Shown here in pieces: positions 2,945 to 25,161 of a stretch of 28,585 bases of DNA. Numbering within the stretch: position 1 is the stretch's first letter; the number at the start of each line of letters is the position of its first letter. The notes under the pieces were generated by a model. The model was not told the origin of the DNA. It searched no databases and worked only from the letters and a program-made list of their open reading frames with translations. The stretch lies in the IMG/VR virus record IMGVR_UViG_3300032092_000181, positions 1-28,585 of that record. One strand, 5' to 3'. The translations under genes and the position numbers were made by a program. This DNA is from a virus.

Positions 2945-3659
2945 CGCCGTCAACATCACCAACATCACACCGCCGCGTGTGCAAATGGTTGACCCAAACA
3001 CAGGGTTGGTCAGCCGTGAGTGGTTCCGGTTTTTTGAAAGCCTGTTCCGGCTGACCGGCAGCGGGCAGAACGACTTCACGCTGCAAGACTTGCAACTTGG
3101 CCCTGACGCCGGGACGGACATGGGCATTGCGGTCTTGCAGACCGAAATCCAGAACCTGTCCGTGTCACCGCCATACACACCGCAGTTGCCCCGCCGCCGC
3201 TACGGCTCGTTTTACGACACCACCACGCAGACGGCAGCAGCTATAAACACCGCCTACGCAATGACGTTCAACACGGTTGATCTGTCGTCTGGTGTCACCC
3301 GCGGCACACCTACCTCGCGCATCTACGTTGACACGCTGAACGTCTACAACGTGCAATTCTCCGCGCAAGTTGATAAAACATCGGGCGGTGTCGGGTTGGT
3401 CTGGATTTGGCTGCGTAAGAACGGGGTAAACGTGCCGGACAGCGCCGGCCAAATCCGCATACAAGGTAACAACGCAGAAGTTCTTGCGGCGTGGAATTAC
3501 ATCATTCAGTTGAACGCCGGAGATTATATCGAATTGATGTGGGAAGTGGACGACACATCGGTTATCCTTCTGGCAGAAGCTGCGTCCGCCGTGCATCCGT
3601 CCGTTCCTTCGGTCATCCTCACCGTGACCAACAACATTAGCTCAGATGGGGGCTACTAA
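2937..3659 (+). CDS. Tail-associated protein with a C-terminal jelly-roll-like domain
   Basis: 240 residues. Residues 8-40 (NITPPRVQMVDPNTGLVSREWFRFFESLFRLTG, of which REWFRFF is the landmark) are a widespread N-terminal module of podovirus proteins encoded beside the gp10-like hub. Residues 88-240 are beta-rich, with spacing (VYNVQFSAQ, WIWLRKNGVNVPDS, LNAGDYIELMW) reminiscent of C1q/TNF-like trimeric heads. A minor tail or fibre-attachment role is inferred from this and from the location between hub and fibre. ATG overlaps the end of the gp10-like gene, and the stop overlaps the fibre start (TAATG). No enzymatic motif is visible. Confidence 0.6.
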   Translation: MPNAVNITNITPPRVQMVDPNTGLVSREWFRFFESLFRLTGSGQNDFTLQDLQLGPDAGTDMGIAVLQTEIQNLSVSPPYTPQLPRRRYGSFYDTTTQTAAAINTAYAMTFNTVDLSSGVTRGTPTSRIYVDTLNVYNVQFSAQVDKTSGGVGLVWIWLRKNGVNVPDSAGQIRIQGNNAEVLAAWNYIIQLNAGDYIELMWEVDDTSVILLAEAASAVHPSVPSVILTVTNNISSDGGY

Positions 3660-4513
3660 TGGCCGTTCTTTCTCCCTCGCCCAAAGCGCAGTTTCTGGAC
3701 GCCTCTGGTGCGCCGTTGGTTGGTGGCAGGGTCTACACTTACGCCGCCGGCACGACCACGCCGCTGGCAACCTACACGACCGGCGCTGGCACGGTGGCCA
3801 ACACCAACCCGGTGATCTTGGACTCCCGCGGCGAGGCCAACATCTGGTACACCACCGGCACCTCGTACAAAGTTGTGCTGGCTGATTCGGCTGACGCTTT
3901 GATCTGGTCAGTGGACAACATCGCTACAGTTGGGTCGATGGCGCTCCAGAACGCCAACGCAGTGGCCATCACCGGCGGCACCATCGGGGCGGGCGTGACC
4001 TTCAACGGCAACACCACTGGCACCGCGTCCAACGTCACTGGCGTCGTTGCGGTCGTCAACGGCGGCACAGGCTCAACCACGGCGGCCAACGCGCGCACCG
4101 CCCTTGGCGCGGCGGCAAGTGGGGCAAACACCGACATCACGTCGCTGCGGCAAAGCGTGGCAATTGTGGCCACTGGCACGGTCGGCGCTGAGAGCATCGG
4201 CTACCGCGGCGCACCGCAGAACGCCCAGACGGCAGCCTACCAACTGGCGCTGACTGACAACGGCAAGCACATCTCAATCACCACCGGCGGCATTACGATC
4301 CCGGCCAACAGCGCAGCGGCGTTCCCGATTGGCGCAACGGTCGTCATCTACAACAACAGCGGCAGCAGCCAGAACATCGCCATCACGACCGACACGCTGC
4401 GTCAGGCTGGCACGACAAACACCGGCACCCGGGCGCTGGCCAACTACGGCCTGGCGACGTGCGTCAAGGTGGACACGACCGTGTGGGTCATCACTGGCGC
4501 GGGGCTGACCTGA
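3659..4513 (+). CDS. Tail fibre/tailspike with P22-type head-binding domain
   Basis: 284 residues. Residues 1-90 (MAVLSPSPKAQFLDASGAPL, GGRVYTYAAGTTTPLATY, NPVILDSRGEANIWY, VVLADSADALIWSVDNI) are the head-binding fold that anchors P22-like tailspikes to the hub. Residues 105-160 carry collagen- or fibre-like Thr/Gly repeats (VVNGGTGSTTAANARTALG), a common fibre shaft motif. Residues about 180-284 form a C-terminal domain that also appears in the gene cut at the left window edge. No polysaccharide-degrading catalytic signature is seen, so it is more likely an adhesin fibre than an enzymatic spike. It is coupled by TAATG upstream and TGATG downstream. Confidence 0.75.
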   Translation: MAVLSPSPKAQFLDASGAPLVGGRVYTYAAGTTTPLATYTTGAGTVANTNPVILDSRGEANIWYTTGTSYKVVLADSADALIWSVDNIATVGSMALQNANAVAITGGTIGAGVTFNGNTTGTASNVTGVVAVVNGGTGSTTAANARTALGAAASGANTDITSLRQSVAIVATGTVGAESIGYRGAPQNAQTAAYQLALTDNGKHISITTGGITIPANSAAAFPIGATVVIYNNSGSSQNIAITTDTLRQAGTTNTGTRALANYGLATCVKVDTTVWVITGAGLT

Positions 4514-4938
4514 TGAGCGGCGCGGTATTGTCCTTGCTGGGTACGTCGGGTGGGGCGGCGTCTGCCGTGACCATCACGGTCAACCCCGTAACGATCACAG
4601 GCATCAATATCGGCGGCACTGCGTCGGCGCAGTACCAGCTTAACAGCAGCGGCAATGCGTTTGAGATTGTCAACGGTGGGTTGGCCACACTGTTATACGC
4701 TTGGTGCATTCCGGCGGGCCAAGCAGCCAACTACGAAGTGTACGCCAGCTTGGTGTCAGGGTCGTTGAGCGCCGGCAGTTCGGCTACCGACACTTGGCTG
4801 GCGCTGACATCGACGCGCAATTGGCTGGTCAGCACCACCACCCTTAAATACGCGACGATTGATGTTGGCATCCGGCGTATCGGCACCACCACCATTTTGG
4901 CGTCGGCAGACATCAATCTAGAAGCCGAAGCAGTATAA
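4513..4938 (+). CDS. Small beta-rich protein following the tail fibre
   Basis: 141 residues from ATG 4513, chosen because it overlaps the fibre stop as TGATG, the same arrangement as at 420-424; an upstream start at 4459 would lie inside the fibre gene. The first residues, MSGAVLSLLGTSG, match the start of the glycine-rich protein at 422 (MSGIQMALLGSVG), but the rest is different: a Thr/Ile-rich beta pattern (VTITVNPVTITGINIGG) followed by YAWCIPAGQAANYEVYASL. The N-terminus may be a shared docking tag for a fibre tip or chaperone. The family is not recognised. A virion or fibre assembly role is inferred from position. Confidence 0.55.
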   Translation: MSGAVLSLLGTSGGAASAVTITVNPVTITGINIGGTASAQYQLNSSGNAFEIVNGGLATLLYAWCIPAGQAANYEVYASLVSGSLSAGSSATDTWLALTSTRNWLVSTTTLKYATIDVGIRRIGTTTILASADINLEAEAV

Positions 4939-4947
4939 GGATAGGCC

Positions 4948-5283
4948 ATGTCTGTTACCGCCAAAGCCCTGATCCCAGCCAAGGTCGCCGAAGACACGCA
5001 GTCCACGCAGTACACTGCGACCAACGTGACGACGATCATCGACAAGTTCACGGCCACCAACTACGGCGCGGTTGCGGCGTCGATCAGCGTCAACCTGGTG
5101 ACGGCAGCCGACACATCTGGCACGCAGAACTTGATCGTGAAGACCAAGACGCTCCAGCCGTCTGAAACCTACACGTTCCCGGAACTGGTCGGCCACATCC
5201 TGAACTCAAACGGGTTCATCTCGACGCTGGCGTCCGCGCCGCTGACGATCAACATCCGCGCGTCAGGACGTGAGATTAGCTGA
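4948..5283 (+). CDS. Conserved small phage protein, probably virion-associated
   Basis: 111 residues, starting after AAGGATAGGCC, an adequate ribosome binding site. The pattern MSVTAKALIPAK, STQYTATNVTTIIDKFTATN, ETYTFPELVGHIL and ending NIRASGREIS recurs in many phage tail regions. It is predicted to be mostly beta strand with no membrane segment or catalytic motif. The function is not known to me. It lies between the second fibre cassette and the sulfotransferase-GNAT gene, with which it overlaps (TGATG). Confidence 0.5.
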   Translation: MSVTAKALIPAKVAEDTQSTQYTATNVTTIIDKFTATNYGAVAASISVNLVTAADTSGTQNLIVKTKTLQPSETYTFPELVGHILNSNGFISTLASAPLTINIRASGREIS

Positions 5284-6350
5284 TGCCACCATTCGTTGTC
5301 TTTGCATTGCCTAGATCGCGCACGGCGTGGCTGTCGCGGTTTTTGACATACGGCGATTGGGTGTGTGGGCATGAAGAACTACGCCGCGCACGCAGTCTTG
5401 ACGACGTGACGGCGTGGTTTTCACAGCCTAACATCGGCACCGCAGAGACAGCCGCCGCGCCGTGGTGGCGTCTGCTAGATCGTTTTGCACCCGACGCGCG
5501 CATCTTGATCGTGCGCCGCCCGGTTAGTGAAGTGGTGGATAGCTTGATGCGTCTGCTGGGGTTGGCTTTTGACCGCGCCGTGCTTGAACAGACCATAATC
5601 AAACTAGACCGTAAGCTAGACCAGATTGAAGCACGGTGTGCTAACGTCCTTTCGGTCAACTTTGACGATCTAAACGATGAGACGGCCTGCGCCGCTGCGT
5701 TCGAACATTGCCTTCCTCACGCGCACGACCACAACCATTGGGCGCGGTTGGCGCCGATGAACATCCAGATAGATATGCCCGCGCTAATGCGGTACGCACA
5801 CGCATATTCGCCGGCGCTGGAAAAGGTAGCTGCCATTGCAAAGCACCAAACGCTTGCGGCTATGGCCACCCGTAAACCTGTAGAACCTGAAGGTATTACG
5901 TTCCAAACAGAAACTTTTGATGATTGGCTAGACGGCGCGGCGAAGCTGTTTGACGACCATCTGGTCGCTGTTGGTGAGCCGCCAGGTAACTGGCAGAACA
6001 AGAACCTTGGGATGATGCAGCGCATCTACGACGCAGGGGCCATGCAGATTATGACCGCCCGCTGCAATGGGCGTATGTTTGGCTATCTGATGACGCTCAT
6101 TGCGCCGTCAATGGCGGCTGAAAACTTGACGACAGCTACGCACACAACCTTTTATGCCGACCCAACATTCCCCGGTCTTGGCTTAAAATTGCAGCGTGCA
6201 GCGTTGCGGGATTTAAAAAAACGCGGTGTAGACGAGGTGTTTTTGGAAGCCGGTCAACGGGGTTCCGGCCCTAGACTTTCCATGTTATATAAGCGTTTGG
6301 GTGCGCTAGATTACAGCCATGTCTACCGTATGCAATTGACGGAGCATTAA
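5283..6350 (+). CDS. Fusion of sulfotransferase-like and GNAT acetyltransferase-like domains
   Basis: 355 residues. The N-terminal half begins FALPRSRTAWLSRFL (residues 7-20), which fits the 5'-phosphosulfate-binding loop of PAPS-dependent sulfotransferases, and ILIVRRPVSEVVDSLMRL (74-91) fits the 3'-phosphate-binding motif. The C-terminal part, from about residue 240, has a GNAT-like layout: MTARCNGRMFGYLMTLIAP (257-275), an acetyl-CoA loop-like FPGLGLKLQRAALRDL (296-311), and a final RLSMLYKRLGALDYSHVYRM. GNAT-like proteins are common in this place in podovirus tail operons; the sulfotransferase fusion is less common. Substrates are unknown; modification of a virion protein or a host surface glycan is conceivable. 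Codons are more AT-ending than in the neighbours, suggesting acquisition. Coupled to the upstream gene by TGATG. Confidence 0.65.
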   Translation: MPPFVVFALPRSRTAWLSRFLTYGDWVCGHEELRRARSLDDVTAWFSQPNIGTAETAAAPWWRLLDRFAPDARILIVRRPVSEVVDSLMRLLGLAFDRAVLEQTIIKLDRKLDQIEARCANVLSVNFDDLNDETACAAAFEHCLPHAHDHNHWARLAPMNIQIDMPALMRYAHAYSPALEKVAAIAKHQTLAAMATRKPVEPEGITFQTETFDDWLDGAAKLFDDHLVAVGEPPGNWQNKNLGMMQRIYDAGAMQIMTARCNGRMFGYLMTLIAPSMAAENLTTATHTTFYADPTFPGLGLKLQRAALRDLKKRGVDEVFLEAGQRGSGPRLSMLYKRLGALDYSHVYRMQLTEH

Positions 6351-6351
6351 T

Positions 6352-7098
6352 ATGGGTTTGGCAGCAGCAGCAGCAATTTCTGGGGTAGCCGCAATCGGCA
6401 GCGGCGCAATCGCAGCCGGTGGGGCCAAGAAGGCCGCCCGCGTGCAGGAGCAGGCGTCGCGTGACGCACAGGCCGCCAACGAACGGATGTTGGAGCGCCA
6501 GATCGGGCTGCAAGAACCGTTCCGCCAAGCTGGCCTGACCGCGCAAGAGCAGATCATGCAGTTGCTGGGTGTCGGCGGTGATAAGTCGGCGGCGGACTAC
6601 GGCAGTCTAGCCAAGCCGTTTGGCATGGAGCAGTTTGAGCAAGACCCAGGCTACGCCTTCCGCCAATCGGAGGGTATGAAGGCGCTGGAGCGCAGCGCCG
6701 CAGCCCGCGGCCTATTGCAGTCAGGCCCCACGTTAAAGGGCATCCAGCGGTTCGGGCAGGAATCGGCCAGCCAAGAATACGGCAACGCCTTCAACCGCTA
6801 CCAGATCGAGCGCAGCGCGCGCCTGAACCCGCTTCAGTCGCTGATGGGTTCTGGCCAGTCGGCAACCAACGTCATGACGGGTAACGTCGGTCAGTCGAGC
6901 CAGAACCAGCAGGCTAACATTTTGGGTGCCGGGCAGGCCCGCGCGTCTGGTTACGTCGGTCAGGCTAACGCGCTCAGTGGGGCGTTGGGTAGTATCGGCC
7001 AAGCGGCGGCGTCGTACCCGCTGTTGAACGCACAGGTCGGCTATTACAACGCTATGGCGAAGAACCCCCCGAAAACCGTATATAGCGATTTTGGCTAA
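6352..7098 (+). CDS. Ejection protein, P22 gp7-like (DNA transfer protein)
   Basis: 248 residues. A GGAG site precedes ATG. Residues 1-25 form a hydrophobic Ala/Gly-rich segment (GLAAAAAISGVAAIGSGAIAAGG), then a helical region (RVQEQASRDAQAANERMLERQIGLQEPFRQAG) and a motif typical of this family, PGYAFRQSEGMKALERSAAARGLLQSG. Phage proteins with this arrangement are annotated as DNA transfer or internal virion proteins; in P22 gp7 is carried in the capsid and injected with the genome. The C-terminal 80 residues are Gln/Gly/Ala-rich and low in complexity. First of three consecutive ejection-type genes, in the P22 order 7-20-16. Confidence 0.75.
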   Translation: MGLAAAAAISGVAAIGSGAIAAGGAKKAARVQEQASRDAQAANERMLERQIGLQEPFRQAGLTAQEQIMQLLGVGGDKSAADYGSLAKPFGMEQFEQDPGYAFRQSEGMKALERSAAARGLLQSGPTLKGIQRFGQESASQEYGNAFNRYQIERSARLNPLQSLMGSGQSATNVMTGNVGQSSQNQQANILGAGQARASGYVGQANALSGALGSIGQAAASYPLLNAQVGYYNAMAKNPPKTVYSDFG

Positions 7099-7111
7099 CT
7101 GAGGACGGACA

Positions 7112-8707
7112 ATGGCTAACCAAGCAATCGCCCTTCAGGCCCGCGCACCGCAAGGCAACTTCTTGGCGCCTGCGATCCAGCAAGGCGCGCAGATGATCAA
7201 CATAATGTCGCAGCAGCGCGCTGCTGAACGTCAGGCAGCGGCGCAGCAGCAGACTCTGGAGTTGGCGCGGGCAAAAGAAGAACGCGACATTACGCAGGCG
7301 CAGATCGACAACAACGGTAAGAAAATTGATTTCTATACTAAGCGCGCCGGCCAGACCATGAACGCTGCTGGGTACGAACTTTTGCTGCGTGACATGGATA
7401 AAGACGCGCCGCAGTTTGCGGCAATGTTTCGAACCAATTTGCCGCCGGAAAAATTTGATCGCAACGAGTTGCTCAAAATGGTCGGCAGCGTCGGCGACAA
7501 TTTCAAAGCTACGTTTGGCCCGTTGGAAACCGAAGTCGTGCAGTTAGAAAACGGAGATTACGCGGTTACGGTTACCGGAGGTTACGGCAAAAACACTGGT
7601 GTGTTTGAACTTCCAGGGTACAAGTTGCGCGCCGGCGGCGCCCCGCCTACCGCCGCGCCCGCAACGCCACCAGCAACGTCCGCACCGCCCGCACCGCCCG
7701 CTACCGCGCCTGCGCCCGCAGCCGGGGGTATGTTCCGTCCTGCGGCGTTCTCGCCAGATCAAGGCGCAGACCCGGCTGCCGCGTTGGCAAAGTCCTTGAC
7801 TGAAGCTCAAGGAACCAAACGGATTGACGCAGGCACGGTCGAGCAAATTAAAGCTATGGTGCCGCCGGAAGCGGTTGACCGGTTCATTCAGGTCAACGGT
7901 ATCCAAGTGACGCCAAGCGACGGTATGCGTAGCGCCGTCTACCGTCCAGATGGCGGCGCGCCGCTGGCGCAGCAAGTTCAGTTCGACCCGAACGCATATG
8001 TGGCTACGGGCCAGACAGCGCGCGGTAAACCGCCGATGGTGTCGCCGATGCCTGGGTCGGCCAGCGTGCCGCTTGATCGCGTTCGCGCAGAAGCAGCGGC
8101 AGGGCGTCCGACACCTATTGAAGCGGCTGCGGTCGCGTCGGCTACCACTACGGCTACTAAGGCTGCGGAGCTTAAAGCAGAACAGGCCAAGAAGTTGTCG
8201 GCCAAACTTCAGGTGTCTACGCTGCTGCAAAAAATTCGCAACGCATACGAGACGCTGAACAAAGCCGAATCAATTGTGTCAGATGAGCGCGGCGCGTTTG
8301 CAAACGTATTTGACTATCTATCCACGACAGGGACGGGACGTGAAATCCAGCGCGCGCTCGGCACCTCGGCCAACAAGTCGCTGAACGAAATTACCGGCGC
8401 GCGTAAACTGCTGGCCACGGCAATCAAAACCGCTGCCGGTATGTCCGCACAGGAAATGAACTCGAACGTCGAATTGCAACTGACGCTAGACGCGCTGACC
8501 GATCCAACGCAGGGCTACGAAAGTGTAATCAGCCAGATCGACACGTTGGAACAACTGTACGGCACCGGTGGCGTTCAAACGCCTGTTACATCTGCCGGTC
8601 GCCAGACGCCGGTAATTCCAACTTTGACGCCGGAACAGGTACGGGCCAACCCTAGCATCAAGCGTTGGAGACGCGCGGACAACGGAAAGGTCATGACCCG
8701 GCCATGA
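7112..8707 (+). CDS. Ejection protein, probably the P22 gp20 equivalent
   Basis: 531 residues with a GAGGA ribosome binding site. The N-terminal 80 residues are predicted long helix with many Gln and Ala (QAAAQQQTLELARAKEERDITQAQID). Residues about 177-205 are a Pro/Ala linker. The C-terminal half (360-500) is again helical and includes a segment around LNEITGARKLLATAIKTAAGMSAQEMNSNVE, typical of internal virion proteins. Assignment rests mainly on position between a gp7-like and a third ejection protein and on composition; the family evolves fast. The 3' end overlaps the next gene by ATGA. Expected role: released early during infection to help the DNA cross the envelope. Confidence 0.6.
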   Translation: MANQAIALQARAPQGNFLAPAIQQGAQMINIMSQQRAAERQAAAQQQTLELARAKEERDITQAQIDNNGKKIDFYTKRAGQTMNAAGYELLLRDMDKDAPQFAAMFRTNLPPEKFDRNELLKMVGSVGDNFKATFGPLETEVVQLENGDYAVTVTGGYGKNTGVFELPGYKLRAGGAPPTAAPATPPATSAPPAPPATAPAPAAGGMFRPAAFSPDQGADPAAALAKSLTEAQGTKRIDAGTVEQIKAMVPPEAVDRFIQVNGIQVTPSDGMRSAVYRPDGGAPLAQQVQFDPNAYVATGQTARGKPPMVSPMPGSASVPLDRVRAEAAAGRPTPIEAAAVASATTTATKAAELKAEQAKKLSAKLQVSTLLQKIRNAYETLNKAESIVSDERGAFANVFDYLSTTGTGREIQRALGTSANKSLNEITGARKLLATAIKTAAGMSAQEMNSNVELQLTLDALTDPTQGYESVISQIDTLEQLYGTGGVQTPVTSAGRQTPVIPTLTPEQVRANPSIKRWRRADNGKVMTRP

Positions 8708-10368
8708 AACAGAACGATCCTTACGCCGGGCTAGGCACTTACGAACAGGGCGGCGCAGACCCTTACGCAGGGCTGGGTACTGTTGAAAAAACAATGCCGC
8801 GCACCAAAGCCGCGCCGCCTGCACCCGACGCATCGGCGGCCCAGTTGGCCGGCGTTGTTTCTGGCGCGGTTTCGCCATACGCAACTATTGCCGGCATGGG
8901 TGCAATGGCGGGCGCGCCTTTTGGTGTCGGCGCTCCGCTGGGTGCTGCTGGCGGCGTTTTGTCGTTGGGTTTGGCTGATCTTGGCACCGGCCTTTACAAC
9001 GCCGCCACGCCGCTGTTTAATGGCGCGCGCGTTCGTCTGCCATCAGAAATCATTCGCTCACAACTTCAAAACGTAGGCGTGGGGCGCGCGCCGCAAACGC
9101 CGGGTCAGGAAGTGCTGTTTCGCACCGCTGAAGGCGCGGCAGGCGCGTTGAGCGGCGCTTCGGCACTAGGCACTATGGCATCCCGCGCGGCCCCCGGCGT
9201 TGCTCGGAACGTCATGCAGGCGATGGCCCAAGCGCCGCTGGCACAGACTGCGGCTGGCGCGGCGGCTGGCGGTGTTCCAGCAGCGGCGCGCGAATACGGC
9301 GGCGTAACTGACCCGCTGGCGCTTGCGGCTTTGTCGCTGGGTGCTGGCGGGTTGGCAGGCGCTGCTGCAACACCGCGCCCGGCAGCGGTCACACAGCAAC
9401 AGTTGGTTGACAGAGCAAGAACGGCTTACGCCAACGCCGAACAAGCGGGCGTGCAGTTTGAACCTACATCAATCACTAATCTCGGCGCGAATATTCTTAC
9501 ATCGCTATCAACGCACCCAAGAGTTCAGTTTCATCCAGGTCTACACCCGCGTGTAGCGACGGTGCTGACAGCCATAGAAACAGCCGGGCAAAACGCCTTA
9601 ACATCGGGAACGCCGATTTCGTTTTCAGAACTTGAACTGTTGCGCCGCCTCGCGCGGACAGCGGCCAACACACCTGACAGAGATCAGCGCCGATTAGTTG
9701 GCACGATCATTAACCAGATTGACAGGTTCGTTGATGCACCGCCGGCTAACGCCGTTGTATCTGGAAACGCGCCGGGTGCGGCCACCGCTATTAGAGAAGC
9801 CCGTCGAGCATGGCGGCAAATGAGCCAAGCTGACGTTTTTGATACTATGGTCGAACGCGCTACCAACTCCGCGCAAGGTTTAAACTCCAAGTCTTTGCAA
9901 GCGCAGGCCCGTTCTATTGCAAACAACCCCAACCGTATGCGCGGGCTAGACCCAAATCTTCAGGCACAAGTCAGAAACTTGGCTCAAGGCAGAGGTGGTC
10001 TTTCCACGCTGCAAGGTTTGGGCAGTTTTGCGCCTTCTTTAGACGCCAAAAACGTAATGAATTACGTGCTCGGGGCTGGCACTGGCGGGGCTATTTACGC
10101 TGGCCAACCCGCTCTGGGCGCGCTCGGTGTCGGTCTAGGTGCTACGGGTCTGGTGTCCAAAGCTGCGGCTAACCGCATGGCATTGAATCGCGTAAACGCT
10201 ATGGGGTCACAAGCCAGAGGGACACCCGCTCGTCAGATTCCTTTCGCGCCTTTGGCCGCTGCGGCAGGGCAAGAAGCTGTTCGCGGTAGCGGCGGTATTA
10301 CCGTGACGCTGCGCCCAGACATTAAAGACCCAAACAAACGCGCCTCTATGGGTCTTCCGCCGCTATAA
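8704..10368 (+). CDS. Third ejection / internal virion protein (gp16-like position)
   Basis: 554 residues from ATG 8704, chosen because it overlaps the previous stop as ATGA; a start 39 nt upstream is possible but lacks this coupling. The N-terminus has a perfect duplicated octapeptide DPYAGLGT (residues 5-12 and 19-26). Residues about 45-105 are a Gly/Ala-rich hydrophobic region that could insert into membrane, and another hydrophobic stretch lies near residues 450-490. No lytic transglycosylase catalytic motif is obvious. In P22-like phages the third ejection protein forms part of the channel across the cell envelope; that role is inferred here from order and hydrophobicity. Confidence 0.6.
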   Translation: MKQNDPYAGLGTYEQGGADPYAGLGTVEKTMPRTKAAPPAPDASAAQLAGVVSGAVSPYATIAGMGAMAGAPFGVGAPLGAAGGVLSLGLADLGTGLYNAATPLFNGARVRLPSEIIRSQLQNVGVGRAPQTPGQEVLFRTAEGAAGALSGASALGTMASRAAPGVARNVMQAMAQAPLAQTAAGAAAGGVPAAAREYGGVTDPLALAALSLGAGGLAGAAATPRPAAVTQQQLVDRARTAYANAEQAGVQFEPTSITNLGANILTSLSTHPRVQFHPGLHPRVATVLTAIETAGQNALTSGTPISFSELELLRRLARTAANTPDRDQRRLVGTIINQIDRFVDAPPANAVVSGNAPGAATAIREARRAWRQMSQADVFDTMVERATNSAQGLNSKSLQAQARSIANNPNRMRGLDPNLQAQVRNLAQGRGGLSTLQGLGSFAPSLDAKNVMNYVLGAGTGGAIYAGQPALGALGVGLGATGLVSKAAANRMALNRVNAMGSQARGTPARQIPFAPLAAAAGQEAVRGSGGITVTLRPDIKDPNKRASMGLPPL

Positions 10369-10384
10369 CCAAGGAAAGTACGCC

Positions 10385-10552
10385 GTGACGACCATCGACC
10401 AGACCGAAGCGCGGCTGAACACGCATGAGGAAGTGTGCGCTCTGCGTTATGAAGGCATCTGCGCGCGATTGAAACGCTTGGAGAACATCGGCGTGGGCGC
10501 GGCGGGTACGATCATCATGCTGCTGGTCACTATCGTAATGAAGATCAGCTAA
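10385..10552 (+). CDS. Small membrane protein, XhlA/holin-like, GTG start
   Basis: 55 residues starting at GTG with AAGGAAAG about 8 nt upstream. Residues 1-33 are charged and helical (TIDQTEARLNTHEEVCALRYEGICARLKRLE), and 36-52 are one membrane segment (GVGAAGTIIMLLVTIVM). A short soluble N-terminal coiled coil plus one C-terminal membrane helix is the layout of XhlA-type phage proteins and some class III holins. It is the first gene after the virion block and heads the lysis region, so a holin or holin accessory role is plausible. It may instead be an unrelated small membrane protein; a second holin candidate lies at 12085. Confidence 0.6.
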   Translation: MTTIDQTEARLNTHEEVCALRYEGICARLKRLENIGVGAAGTIIMLLVTIVMKIS

Positions 10553-10588
10553 CCACCGCGGTCTGAAAGACTGCTCTGAGGGTGATGT

Positions 10589-11635
10589 ATGGCAGTCAAT
10601 CAGTACGACGTTGATCCAGAACAAGATGCTAAAATAGCGGCTGCTGCGGTCGAGCATGGTAGTCAGAACATGGCCGCCCTCGCCTTGGGGATGAGCCGGG
10701 CGGCTGTGCAGAACGCCTGCCGCCGTCATGCGGCGCGGACAGCCGCTGTTTTATCGTTCGACACGCCCAAGGCAGACCCACTGCCGCCGTTTGATCTGCC
10801 GTTCGCAGAGCGGCTGGCGTTGATGAAGAAGCGCAACGCGCTGCGGATCGCACACGCGCAGGCGCAAGCTTGGCAGACCGTGCGGATACCGATCAAAGGG
10901 CCTTACGCCATCTGCTGGTTTGGCGATCCGCACCTCGACGATCCGTACTGCGATCTGGTCGGCTTCGAGCGTGACGCCACCATCTGCGCTGAAACCCAAG
11001 GGCTGTACGGCGCCAACGGTGGGGATAGCATCAACAACTGGGTGGGTAAGTTGGAGCGCCTGTACGGCGAACAATCCGCCACGGTGTCAGAAGGCTGGGA
11101 ACTGGTCGAGTGGGCGCTGAAGCATCTGGGCGTCAACTGGCTGGTGTGGATTCTGGGCAACCACGACACCTGGAACTACGGCAAAAGAATCTTCGACGGC
11201 ATGAACACCGAACGCATCCTGATGCGCGACTGGGACGCCAAGCTGCAACTGGTTTCGCCGTGCGGCGGTATCACCCGGGTCTGGGCGCGGCACGACTTCA
11301 AGGGCCACTCGATGTACAACGAGTTGCACGGCCTGAAGCGGGCGGCGATGATCGACGAACACGCCGACATCTACGCTGCGTTCCACCGGCACACGTTTGG
11401 CACCGGCCAGGGCGAGTTTGCTGGCGGGCGGCGCTACACGCTGGTGCGCGCCAAGGGCTATAAGGAGTTTGACGACTACGCGCTCAAGGGCCAGTTCGCA
11501 GAACAGCGCAGCGGACAGTCAGTGGTCACGGTCATCACGCCGCGCGACGGCGCTGCCCCGGCGGTCAGTGTGTTTGAGGACGTGCAAGAAGGCGCGGCCT
11601 TCCTGACGTACAAGCGCAGAAAGGCTGGTCTATGA
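10589..11635 (+). CDS. Calcineurin-like metallophosphoesterase with N-terminal helix-turn-helix
   Basis: 348 residues. Metal-binding motifs appear in order: GDPHLDD (112-118, D113 and H115), GGDSINNW (144-151, D146), GNHDTW (190-195, N191, H192, D193), GHSMYN (239-244), and FHRHTF (265-270, H266 and H268). This is the complete two-metal phosphoesterase set. Residues 15-48 (AAAAVEHGSQNMAALALGMSRAAVQNACRRH, with MSRAAVQNACRR as recognition helix) look like a DNA-binding helix-turn-helix. Phage enzymes of this group are common near packaging or tail genes, but substrates are unsettled; nucleic acid or nucleotide phosphoesters are likely. AGGG lies about 8 nt before the start. The stop overlaps the next start as ATGA. 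Confidence 0.8.
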   Translation: MAVNQYDVDPEQDAKIAAAAVEHGSQNMAALALGMSRAAVQNACRRHAARTAAVLSFDTPKADPLPPFDLPFAERLALMKKRNALRIAHAQAQAWQTVRIPIKGPYAICWFGDPHLDDPYCDLVGFERDATICAETQGLYGANGGDSINNWVGKLERLYGEQSATVSEGWELVEWALKHLGVNWLVWILGNHDTWNYGKRIFDGMNTERILMRDWDAKLQLVSPCGGITRVWARHDFKGHSMYNELHGLKRAAMIDEHADIYAAFHRHTFGTGQGEFAGGRRYTLVRAKGYKEFDDYALKGQFAEQRSGQSVVTVITPRDGAAPAVSVFEDVQEGAAFLTYKRRKAGL

Positions 11636-18348: not shown

Positions 18349-20316
18349 CTATTTCCCGTAGCGTTGCATGATAGCCACTTCCGCGTTCAGCGGCAGGCCA
18401 GCGGCCCAGAGCGGCGGTGTACACATGATCTTGACCAGCGCGGCGGCGGCGTCCTCGGCGGTGCTGGCGTCGGTCTCCAGCACGATTTCGTCGTGGACGT
18501 GCAGCACTACGTCAAACCCTTCTTCCTCCAACCGCCGCAGCGCGTGCCGCAGCAGATCGTTGGCGATGGCCTGTGTGATGTTTTCGCAGGCCAGACCGCG
18601 CCACAGGCGGGCGCGGGGCCATTCCTTTGCGTCGGCGGCGGGCTTCCACGCCGCTTTGGCGTAGGTGATATTGCCTTCCTCATCAAAGCGGGCGAACGGG
18701 TAGCATAGCACACGGCGTGACGGCAGGGCATACCAAAGATGCTGCTTGTCGTACAAATAGGTCACGCGCCCGGCGCTGATCTCTTGGCCTGGGTGGCGCA
18801 TGGCGCCGGTGTACGCCCGCTCCAGCCCCGTCCAGTAGTTGACCGACCACGGGTTCGCCCGACGCCAGCCGTCCACCATCTTGCGGCTGTCGCTCTCGGT
18901 CAGGACGACGTTGTAGATGCGGCCCATGCTGGCGAAGGCACCGACGCCGCCGGCGAAGCCGCAAGCCAACTCCTGCACCTTGCCGATCTGGCGCTGGTCT
19001 TTGTCCACATCCTCATAGCGGACATGGAAGGTCGCCGCGGCGTTGTGCTTATACACGTCCTCGCCGCGCGCGAAGATGCCCAGCTTCTCGGCGCCGCTGT
19101 TGGTGTTCGACGCCCAGGGCGTCACCCGCGCCTCGATGGCGGCCCAATCGGCCACCACCAGCCGCTTGCCTTCAGGGGCCATCAGCGCCGGGCGCAGCAT
19201 CCCCTTCAACACGTCCGTGATCCGGCGTCCGAACTGCGGCACGATCTTGTGACCGCGCACCATCGCCTGCCGTGTTAGTGCAGGGTCGTCGGCACATCGT
19301 CGTGGGAAATTATGAACTTGAAGTCCAAATGATGAAGCGCGGCCTGTAGCACTACCTCCAGCGAATACGAACGCTCCTCTAACTCGTTGATCCTCATCGT
19401 CTGAGAGCGCAGCCGCGCGCGCAAACTTTGCAACTGACGACGCCCATAGGTCGTCTGCACATTGGATAACTTCAGCGACGATGGCCGGTACTTCATCAGG
19501 GTTTTCCTCTGCCAGAGCCAACAGGTTGAAGCGGACGTTCTTGTCGATGGATAGCTTGGGTTCGCCGTCCTTGTAAACCGTCGCCAGTTTGAGCGCCTCC
19601 GGCCCGACGCGATCCAGCACCCACGCCCGCATCTTGGGGCTGCGGACGGACGTGATCTCGCCGCCGGTGGCCTCCTCAACCGTCTGCTGGATGTCGGTTG
19701 ACTCGGCGTCGGCGTAGCCCACGGCGGCCAGCGCCAGCGGGCGATCCAGCAGCACGCCGCGGTCGTTGATCCGCTCGTTGGTGTGGTAGTCGCGCAACTC
19801 ATCAGCGGACAGTTCACGCTGGGCCTGGGCGATGGCCCGCATGGCGCGCACGTCCTGTTCGCAGTAGGCGACCATCTCGGCCATCAGGCCGGGGTCGTCG
19901 CGGAAGGTGCCGTCCGCCTGCGGGATCGACAGCAGCCTGATCAGTTGCGCGCCGCGGTGATCTTTTTTCATGGACGCGCCAGCGAACCGGCCCACATCCT
20001 CCAAGCTGCCCGGCGCGCAGTTGACGCGGGCTTGTGCTGCGGTGCAGTAGAACTGCTCCAGCGCGTAGTCGATCTGTAGGACGTACCAGAATACCAGACG
20101 CTCGAACGCGGCGTTGTGCGCCCTGATCTGGCCGGTGTGGTGGCGCACGTCAGCGGGAAACGGCTGGTCAGGCGTCCACGTCCGCACGTCATCATCATCG
20201 AAGGCGTAGGACATACACAGCACGTCGGTGCTGGCGTCCTGCGCGTAGTTGTAGACGCCCTTGGCCGGCAGATCACAGCGGCTGCGCGTCTCGAAATCGA
20301 GCCATAGGATGCTCAT
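18349..20316 (-). CDS. polA: Family A DNA polymerase with 3'-5' exonuclease
   Basis: 655 residues. Exonuclease motifs: LDFET (6-10, D7 and E9), AHNAAFE (66-72) and YCEQD (151-155). Polymerase motifs: TGRASS (324-329), motif A VVADWAAIEAR (387-397, D390), motif B RQIGKVQELACGF (442-454), motif C HVHDE (606-610, D609). In motif B the residue at the E. coli Phe762 position is Leu450, and the Tyr766 position is Phe454. No 5' nuclease domain, as expected for phage enzymes. It replicates the genome with the primase-helicase encoded next. ATG overlaps the stop of the DpdA-like gene (ATGA). Confidence 0.92.
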   Translation of the reverse strand: MSILWLDFETRSRCDLPAKGVYNYAQDASTDVLCMSYAFDDDDVRTWTPDQPFPADVRHHTGQIRAHNAAFERLVFWYVLQIDYALEQFYCTAAQARVNCAPGSLEDVGRFAGASMKKDHRGAQLIRLLSIPQADGTFRDDPGLMAEMVAYCEQDVRAMRAIAQAQRELSADELRDYHTNERINDRGVLLDRPLALAAVGYADAESTDIQQTVEEATGGEITSVRSPKMRAWVLDRVGPEALKLATVYKDGEPKLSIDKNVRFNLLALAEENPDEVPAIVAEVIQCADDLWASSVAKFARAAALSDDEDQRVRGAFVFAGGSATGRASSFGLQVHNFPRRCADDPALTRQAMVRGHKIVPQFGRRITDVLKGMLRPALMAPEGKRLVVADWAAIEARVTPWASNTNSGAEKLGIFARGEDVYKHNAAATFHVRYEDVDKDQRQIGKVQELACGFAGGVGAFASMGRIYNVVLTESDSRKMVDGWRRANPWSVNYWTGLERAYTGAMRHPGQEISAGRVTYLYDKQHLWYALPSRRVLCYPFARFDEEGNITYAKAAWKPAADAKEWPRARLWRGLACENITQAIANDLLRHALRRLEEEGFDVVLHVHDEIVLETDASTAEDAAAALVKIMCTPPLWAAGLPLNAEVAIMQRYGK

Positions 20317-21014
20317 GACAATTCCCCCGCTGAGTTGAAGGACTCAATGCGCTCGGTCAGGATGACGGCGCGGGTTTCCTTGCTGCGCGGCTGGTATGTG
20401 CCTTTCCAAGAACTGTCGATGCCAATGTTGCGGGCCACGTTGGTGCTGTCCGCGCTGGACAGCGGCAACTTAGAAAAGATCGCCGGGTTCAACATCCGCA
20501 GCCCATGCAACTTGCACACGGGGCGGTTATCGTCGTCGCATATGGCGCCGATGGCCTGCGTAGCGCGGCCCAAGAACCGCCGCGGCGTGGACACGTCCCA
20601 CTCACCGCTCGACCCTATGCACACACGCGGCCACTCGCGCGACAGACGGCGCAGACGTTCGATGCTTTCGTTGATGTGCCAGACCACGGCGCCTTGATGG
20701 CGTGGGAAAGGCCACTCAGCGGCAAGCTGGTCGTTCTCCTCTTCGCTGCCTTCGATCACATCAGGCACAACCGCAAAGTCAAAGCCTGGATGGTTACGCC
20801 AATAGCCGACCCATGCGTAATAGTCTGGCCAATGCACACCGCCGCCTTGCTTCCAGAACGTGAACGCGCCGTTGTCCAGCGCAAACGATTGGCAAATTTC
20901 GGCGGCCAAGTTCATCTGCTGCGTGGCAGCAAACGACACAAAGGCATGGCGCGCAGTCCACACTTTGATCGCGCAGGTGTCAGGCGTGATCGGGCCTCCA
21001 TGATAGTGGATCAT
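20313..21014 (-). CDS. TGT/DpdA-like 7-deazaguanine base-exchange protein (putative)
   Basis: 233 residues from ATG 21014, chosen for the ATGA overlap with the QueD-like stop; a GTG at 21026 would add four residues. Segments fit the TIM-barrel tRNA-guanine transglycosylase superfamily and especially its phage DNA-modifying DpdA branch: LDNGAFTFW (46-54, D47), AVVPDVIEG (81-89, D85), RVCIGSSGEW (130-139), KLHGLRM (168-174), SSADSTNVARN (186-196, D189). Members replace a guanine by a 7-deazaguanine such as preQ0. The adjacent QueD-like gene supports this. Alternative: a TIM-barrel protein with another substrate. The zinc-binding Cys set of true tRNA TGTs is not evident. Confidence 0.55.
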   Translation of the reverse strand: MIHYHGGPITPDTCAIKVWTARHAFVSFAATQQMNLAAEICQSFALDNGAFTFWKQGGGVHWPDYYAWVGYWRNHPGFDFAVVPDVIEGSEEENDQLAAEWPFPRHQGAVVWHINESIERLRRLSREWPRVCIGSSGEWDVSTPRRFLGRATQAIGAICDDDNRPVCKLHGLRMLNPAIFSKLPLSSADSTNVARNIGIDSSWKGTYQPRSKETRAVILTERIESFNSAGELS

Positions 21015-21310
21015 TCCCGAACCCACTTCGCGTAAAAGCCTTCCAGCGGGCGGCTGATGTCAACCGCAGCGGCGCGCATATCCAGCCCGATCCGTTCGGC
21101 CAAATCTTCGCCCCACGACAGTTGTTCCGTCAGAACCGAATGGTCAAACTTTTGAAGATAGTCAGCAAGCGATTGTTTGCGACCATCCGCGCTCATCACA
21201 TAGCTGTCTGCTTGCCACCACACCACGACTTGCCACGTATGGCCGTGCAAAACACCGTCGCGGCTGTAGTGGGCGGCGCTGATAACGCCGGACACACCTG
21301 TAAATTTCAT
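21011..21310 (-). CDS. QueD/PTPS-like protein lacking the catalytic cysteine
   Basis: 99 residues, shorter than E. coli QueD (about 120). Zinc ligands are kept: SAAHY (11-15, H14) and LHGHTW (21-26, H22 and H24). FDH (55-57) and the C-terminal Glu in PLEGFY (88-93) match other active-site positions. The Cys that precedes HGH by four residues in QueD and PTPS is Asp18 here, and the protein has no Cys at all. QueD makes 6-carboxytetrahydropterin in the preQ0/queuosine pathway. Paired with a DpdA-like gene, it may belong to DNA deazaguanine modification, but the missing Cys means another reaction is possible. TGAGG precedes the start. Confidence 0.65.
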   Translation of the reverse strand: MKFTGVSGVISAAHYSRDGVLHGHTWQVVVWWQADSYVMSADGRKQSLADYLQKFDHSVLTEQLSWGEDLAERIGLDMRAAAVDISRPLEGFYAKWVRE

Positions 21311-24586: not shown

Positions 24587-24790
24587 TCAAGCTCCCTTTG
24601 TCTGTTGCTCAATAATGTCTGCAATGCGCCCATAACTCTCTGCAAGCTGCAGCTTGCGGCGTTCATCGCTGGCGGTGTCGCACCATTGCGCCTCGCTGTA
24701 ATGGGCGGCCTCGGACGCGCGGTAGAGGCGCGCGGCCTCAATGGCGCCATGCGTGGCGATAGCGTTTGCGGCTATTTGTTGCGCTGTCAT
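24587..24790 (-). CDS. Small hypothetical helical protein
   Basis: 67 residues, starting at ATG 24790, which overlaps the stop of the DUF7249-like gene as ATGA. Helical, Ala-rich (MTAQQIAANAIATHGAIEAARLYRASEAAHYSEAQWCDTASDERRKLQLAESYGRIADIIEQQ). No family recognised. Confidence 0.5.
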   Translation of the reverse strand: MTAQQIAANAIATHGAIEAARLYRASEAAHYSEAQWCDTASDERRKLQLAESYGRIADIIEQQTKGA

Positions 24791-25056
24791 TCCGCTGACT
24801 CCCCGTCGCGGTAGTCTGCAATCTGATGCTGCGCGATTTCGTACCAGTTCACATCATTGATGAACGCCAGCGCATAATCCAGCACCATCTCGGAACCCTG
24901 CTCTGACAGCAAATCTTCCGCCACGCCGCGCAGCATCTGCCCCAAATCGTAAGCGTCTAAGTCGTTGTCGCTGGCGTAGTCGGCACCATCAAACATTTCG
25001 AGGTTGACGCGCCAAGTGGCGTAGTTCGTCCAGCCGTTATATTCCGTGGTCGTCAT
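24787..25056 (-). CDS. DUF7249-like early phage protein
   Basis: 89 residues, acidic. YNGWTNYATWRVNLEMFDG (6-24) matches the YNGWxNxxTWxVxLW signature of small proteins common in phage early regions (DUF7249 from memory). The remainder is helical and acidic and ends DYRDGESAE; function unknown. It has a strong site, ACGAAGGGACACG, before ATG 25056. Its 5' untranslated region contains a predicted hammerhead ribozyme that cuts 61 nt upstream of the ATG, leaving a message that begins with the ribozyme's stem I. Confidence 0.7.
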   Translation of the reverse strand: MTTTEYNGWTNYATWRVNLEMFDGADYASDNDLDAYDLGQMLRGVAEDLLSEQGSEMVLDYALAFINDVNWYEIAQHQIADYRDGESAE

Positions 25057-25078
25057 GTTGTCGTGTCCCTTCGTGTAT

Positions 25079-25143
25079 CGGCTTGTCTCATCAGACTGTC
25101 GGGAGCCGCCCGGCAGTGACGCGCACGGGGTGCGCGTTTCGAC
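25079..25143 (-). ncRNA. Type II hammerhead ribozyme with loop I pseudoknot
   Basis: Minus-strand order: GUC (25143-25141, stem II 3' side), GAAA (25140-25137), stem III CGCGCAC/GUGCGCG (25136-25130 with 25126-25120, loop CCC), U-C (25119-25118, cleavage after C25118), stem I (25117-25109 with 25103-25095, one C-A mismatch), core CUGAUGA (25094-25088), and GAC (25087-25085, stem II 5' side). A15.1 (25137) pairs with U16.1 (25119). The stem I loop CGGCU (25108-25104) is exactly complementary to AGCCG (25083-25079) just 3' of stem II. All conserved core bases are present. Stem II has only 3 bp, so activity probably depends on the pseudoknot. It lies in the spacer between two early genes. Confidence 0.9.
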
Positions 25144-25161
25144 GTTATGACTGCATATTGT

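Follow-up and report, generated by a model that had tools for sequence, protein, structure and literature searches.

A type II hammerhead ribozyme between phage early-operon genes as a probable, optional divider of the early message

The window, a 28,585-nucleotide stretch of viral DNA (IMG/VR record IMGVR_UViG_3300032092_000181), carries a conserved type II hammerhead between two genes of an early-type phage operon. In our reading, to which we give a probability of roughly 0.7, it splits the early message and serves as an optional insulator that yields separately capped RNAs. The observations behind this reading are the motif itself, the covariation of stem I and of the pseudoknot, the placement between a stop codon and a Shine–Dalgarno sequence, the existence of an empty site and the retention of the element beside changing neighbours. 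From these we infer cleavage of the window copy, protection of the new ends and insulation.

The ribozyme can be read directly and in full on the minus strand (25143-25079) in the order GTC-GAAA-(CGCGCAC CCC GTGCGCG)-TC-(ACTGCCGGG CGGCT CCCGACAGT)-CTGATGA-GAC-A-AGCCG. This is the type II arrangement of GAAA, stem III hairpin, UH, stem I hairpin and CUGAUGA, with stem II open. Stem II pairs GUC (25141-25143) with GAC (25085-25087); the core segments GAAA and CUGAUGA occupy 25137-25140 and 25088-25094, respectively. Stem III (25120-25136) has seven perfect pairs closed by a CCC loop, and folding agrees with it. It is followed by U16.1 and C17 (25118-25119), with the cut predicted from core geometry and alignment between 25118 and 25117. 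All conserved core nucleotides are present, including H17 and the pair in which A15.1 (25137) faces U16.1 (25119). The stem I hairpin (25095-25117; ACTG C CGGG / CGGCT / CCCG A CAGT) comprises eight pairs and one C.A mismatch (25113/25099). Its loop, CGGCU (25104-25108), is complementary to AGCCG (25079-25083), which is separated from stem II by a single A (25084). The resulting pseudoknot between loop I and the 3' tail has five base pairs, where the subclass is defined by at least four.

The Rfam model RF02276 matches 25144-25076 over its full length (model positions 1-66 of 66) at 35.5 bits, with an E value of 1.8e-7 for this record and of 2.1e-5 when an 801-base stretch was searched with all 4227 Rfam families. 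The sequence-only reading had proposed such a covariance search; the full-length match is there, but it lies 1.5 bits below the gathering score of 37 bits, a curator's threshold rather than a structural feature, and a default Rfam scan therefore lists nothing for the window. The orthologs in the relatives L213 and L212 score 39.6 and 36.6 bits. We regard the window copy as a sound, slightly sub-threshold member of the known class. A loose hammerhead core pattern occurs once in the window, against 0.01 occurrences expected by chance, and neither this pattern nor the RF02276 search detects a further hammerhead in the 28.6-kb record. Minimum-free-energy folding was not informative (z of -1.1), as expected for a pseudoknotted RNA; the best nested fold pairs the surroundings of CUGAUGA in alternative ways. 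RF02276 hits in relatives that reached just 13-18 bits were treated as weak and left out of the analysis.

Covariation supports the structure as well. Among 19 relatives that share this stem I geometry, compensatory changes occur at 9/9 pairs of stem I and at 4/5 pairs of the pseudoknot. None of 500 shuffles reached the observed covariation score, and sliding the partners abolishes the signal. Stem III also shows compensatory change across relatives. The type II hammerhead first proposed from the letters of the minus strand is thus upheld by the full-length match, the exact core and the covariation. Its stem I hairpin stands too, but the C.A mismatch had gone unmentioned. The pseudoknot pairing is likewise confirmed, although it is not the additional feature it was taken for: it has belonged to the type II consensus since 2011 (Perreault et al., 2011; PMC3088659). 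In another type II member it is supported by mutation and compensation, and fast cleavage at 0.5 mM Mg requires it (PMC3088659).

The survey described below points the same way. In ribozymes with a 22-nt stem I region, an exact 4-bp pseudoknot in one fixed register is found in at least 43 of 55 among the matches listed (permuted mean 4.4), and these comprise at least 14 different strands. For 23-nt and 24-nt stem I regions the figures are 24/34 (7.2 permuted) and 10/15 (1.8 permuted), again among the matches listed. On this comparative evidence the pseudoknot is real as a feature of the class. A chance resemblance, or a DNA-level repeat with no RNA function, could draw on the score slightly under the Rfam cut-off. 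It is opposed by the E value for this record, the strand-specific intergenic placement and the orthologs in relatives, and it is in practice refuted by the covariation; its probability is close to nil.

The ribozyme lies on the coding strand of its two flanking ORFs. Upstream is C66 (25162-25362, minus strand; 66 amino acids), with 97% identical homologs in L212 and L213. Downstream is an 89-residue DUF7249-like protein (24787-25056, minus strand; PF23907, E 1.5e-5, 26.3 bits against a cut-off of 27). The gap between them is 105 nt (25161-25057), and the ribozyme abuts the Shine–Dalgarno-like AAGGGA of the downstream ORF (25066-25071, minus strand). The sequence-only reading was right, on direct reading, about this gap, the ribozyme coordinates, the 7-bp stem III and the predicted cut position. 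Its location in an early-type operon also holds, both flanking ORFs having homologs in relatives and one of them the DUF7249 match. One base before stem II stands a TAA (25145-25147, minus strand) that aligns with the upstream-gene stop in L212, L213 and L016. In the window it closes just three codons (ATG-CAG-TCA-TAA), and it may be the relic of a lost upstream gene. A scan for promoters and terminators near the gap gave nothing beyond chance. Elsewhere in the window, between nucleotidyltransferase-like and polymerase genes, we note a queuine tRNA-ribosyltransferase-like protein (20313-21026, minus strand; phrog_887, E 4.5e-75), possibly a DpdA-like DNA-modification enzyme.

The proposed mechanism is as follows. 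The RNA would fold during transcription into stems I, II and III with the pseudoknot between loop I and the tail, and would cleave the message that contains it after C17 (25118). Of the two products, the upstream RNA would extend 44 nt past the C66 stop codon and close with the stem III hairpin, its 3' end being a 2',3'-cyclic phosphate; the stop codon stays on this product and therefore no non-stop message would arise. The downstream RNA would open with the stem I hairpin itself, bearing a 5'-OH, at a point 61 nt ahead of the DUF7249 start codon, and would retain its Shine–Dalgarno sequence about 46 nt from the 5' end. By topology, type II should be the sole classical permutation of the three to place a hairpin on both new ends. 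A 5'-OH end is not open to the RNase E entry that depends on a 5'-monophosphate, and 3' exonucleases are impeded by 3' hairpins, so the two messages should decay independently. The leading small genes would be separated from the replication operon, each part with its own protected end, and the decay and translation of the two parts would be independent of each other and of the identity of the neighbours. As to the activity of such elements, 4 of 18 consensus-matching hammerheads were inactive in vitro, and a triple hammerhead array was active in E. coli (PMC3088659).

Comparison with close relatives bears on what the ribozyme serves. The order in the window is C66, ribozyme, DUF7249, E67. In L026 it is another gene, ribozyme, clamp-like gene, DUF7249, E67; in L213, C66, B64, x71, ribozyme, clamp-like gene; and in L212, C66, x71, ribozyme, DUF7227, E67. 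The ribozymes of L026, L212 and L213 are 95, 94 and 91% identical to the window copy, a divergence about equal to that of PolA DNA (approximately 94-96% identity for L026 and L212). In the 150 nt of flanking sequence, identity is for the most part close to background. The pattern is consistent with a single ribozyme passed down by inheritance, beside which genes were acquired, lost or replaced. A more distant copy (85% identical) lies between yet other genes in L016. In L005, the PolA DNA of which is 94% identical to that of the window, C66 and DUF7249 are 25 nt apart and the ribozyme is missing; by sequence comparison this is a natural empty site, reflecting loss there or gain in the window. 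The ribozyme is absent from many relatives that have the same genes, and any function must therefore be dispensable.

These arrangements weigh on the idea that an active ribozyme serves the downstream gene only, as a 5'-leader processor that determines how well the DUF7249 message is translated or how stable it is. The abutting Shine–Dalgarno sequence is compatible with this, as are three further loci in which a type II hammerhead lies directly before a DUF7249 homolog: L168 and L169, both found by the ribozyme pattern alone, and L276, where the hammerhead belongs to another class than that of the window. However, in L005, L004 and L026 nothing more than a usual short gap comes before DUF7249, the genes behind orthologous ribozymes include clamp-like, DUF7227 and other ones, and the flanking genes are diverse overall (265 clusters, 211 singletons among the matches listed). 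Control of the DUF7249 message in particular, as initially suggested, finds no support, given the ribozyme-free C66-DUF7249 pair and the other genes behind the orthologs, and we judge it improbable. The placement, the empty site and the exchanged neighbours, taken as sequence evidence, favour gene-independent processing or insulation over DUF7249-specific control.

The ribozyme might instead be decaying or slow, its structure kept by recent descent, with little cleavage in vivo, and be a remnant of an earlier gene arrangement. The C.A mismatch of stem I, the extra base of the L026 copy, the relic stop codon upstream, the empty site and the wide absence of the element are all in keeping with decay. 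Yet every core position is intact, stem I is fully paired in L212 and L213, which carry U-A where the window has C.A, and the ribozyme has diverged about as much as PolA, stem III showing compensatory change across relatives. Nor would a single C.A mismatch in a stem of 9 bp be likely to prevent folding. On balance we consider decay unlikely. The L026 copy (L026:5251-5319) is nearly identical to that of the window, shares the mismatch and has an extra T between CTGATGA and GAC; given this extra U after CUGAUGA it may be impaired and, with the rest of the element intact, it constitutes a natural test of core tolerance. In L022 (5260-5320) a duplicated GC-rich segment, CTAACCGATCGACCGGATCCG, occupies the site of a relative's ribozyme between x71 and the clamp-like gene.

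None of the named phages in INPHARED has the window ribozyme or the DUF7249 protein, and MW202483, the closest named relative by PolA, gives no RF02276 match. In the protein-selected relatives a strict descriptor, which misses bulged stems, found eight type II hammerheads and none of type I or III.

The survey covered at least 174 unique type II hammerheads gathered by a pattern scan of viral contigs and from protein-selected loci; nearly all of them lie on viral contigs. The seed pattern fixed a 3-bp GTC/GAC stem II, such that other stem II sequences are under-sampled, and the controls were random positions rather than other intergenic elements. Among the matches listed, 75% are followed, no more than 40 nt past CTGATGA, by a start codon that has a Shine–Dalgarno sequence and opens a frame of 30 codons or longer; the same holds for 10% of random same-strand positions. 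The median distance from core to start codon is 27.5 nt. The stop codon of the upstream same-strand ORF (at least 40 amino acids) lies at a median of 1 nt before stem II. Counting one ribozyme for each of 107 loci, again among the matches listed, 87 have the stop codon between -1 and +9 nt relative to stem II (the 0-10 nt control gave 4%) and 76 have the start within 40 nt; 62 loci combine the two. The type II hammerhead thus typically occupies the whole space between two genes. We found no statement of this placement in the open-licence literature; stop codons, ribosomes and Shine–Dalgarno sequences are not mentioned by Perreault et al. (PMC3088659).

The flanking proteins fall into at least 265 clusters, of which 211 are singletons, and their Pfam matches are scattered (DUF932 in 5, AAA_5 in 4, DUF7249 in 3, DUF7227 in 2 and ArdA in 1 of 150; all among the matches listed). 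A tie of the ribozyme to a single gene family was accordingly rejected.

The close spacing of stop codon, ribozyme and start codon raises the idea of translation-coupled cleavage, in which a ribosome terminating upstream or initiating downstream sits over stem II, GAAA or the pseudoknot strand and thereby delays cutting, so that the ribozyme reports ribosome traffic. The median distances from stop to stem II and from core to start, among the matches listed, lie within or at the edge of ribosome footprints. In the window, however, the closest upstream stop that is translated lies 18 nt away, and 23-27 nt part the pseudoknot strand from the start codon, which places it at the margin of a 30S footprint; moreover, a compact genome would also give tight packing. 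Such coupling seems to us quite improbable. Returning to insulation, we tentatively extend it to type II hammerheads at large as gene-independent phage joints of approximately 65-75 nt, reaching from stop codon to Shine–Dalgarno sequence and kept through neighbour exchange, with type II chosen because no other permutation gives both ends a hairpin. Early transcripts would become separately protected messages, possibly gated by ribosomes. This wider proposal is less likely to be true than false.

Two other arrangements emerged from the survey. A second type II class, without the pseudoknot, accounts for 39 of the 174 ribozymes among the matches listed. Its stem I region, 17 nt long, consists of 6 bp capped by a UNANG pentaloop, and stem II is often the 4-bp GGUC/GACC. 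Its members include L168:4880-5400 (minus strand), L169, L276, L094, L109 and others; RF02276 gives no match in L168 and L169 despite an exact core. The conserved pentaloop suggests another tertiary contact. Arrays found with Rfam hold nine type II hammerheads in L173 (approximately 3600-7350) and seven in L120 (approximately 8100-11350). They span 3-4 kb, each ribozyme preceding a different small gene, and their pseudoknot sequences differ.

The reason for the abundance of hammerheads in bacteria and phages is still described as unknown (PMC10085705). For the window alone, the result amounts to a sound annotation, one that a default Rfam scan does not return; what is informative is where these ribozymes generally sit, the empty site and the exchange of neighbours. 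The packing of stop codon, ribozyme and Shine–Dalgarno sequence, the pair of loci with and without the element and the retained ribozyme make the insulation idea directly testable at natural junctions.

Among known systems, the pseudoknotted type II hammerhead (RF02276; PMC3088659) shares with the window element the permutation, the core, the short stem II, a pseudoknot of at least 4 bp just downstream of stem II and a phage or prophage setting near small genes. Nothing essential differs; the window copy has the C.A mismatch and the score 1.5 bits under the cut-off. The HHphage ribozyme of haloviruses HF1 and HF2 lies 13 nt before a helicase gene, with a mapped mRNA 5' end within 3 nt of the cut site (PMC3088659). 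It too is a hammerhead a short way ahead of an early gene's start codon, but it belongs to an archaeal virus, has a variant core and precedes the first ORF of the transcript, whereas the window copy lies between ORFs inside an operon. Prophage arrays such as that at the Agrobacterium tumefaciens ardA locus (PMC3088659) are similarly intergenic, on the transcribed strand and before varied genes. The window has a single ribozyme in 28.6 kb, in contrast to these and to the arrays of seven to nine in L120 and L173. Homologs of the DUF7249-like protein (24787-25056, minus strand) follow type II hammerheads in L168 and L169, as ardA does in earlier reports, and the protein could be a counter-defence gene product.

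RiboJ is an engineered insulator derived from the sTRSV hammerhead, which is of type III. Like RiboJ, the window ribozyme would give its downstream product a defined 5'-OH terminus and a hairpin ahead of the ribosome site. The type III permutation leaves the upstream product without a hairpin, whereas type II would leave one on each.
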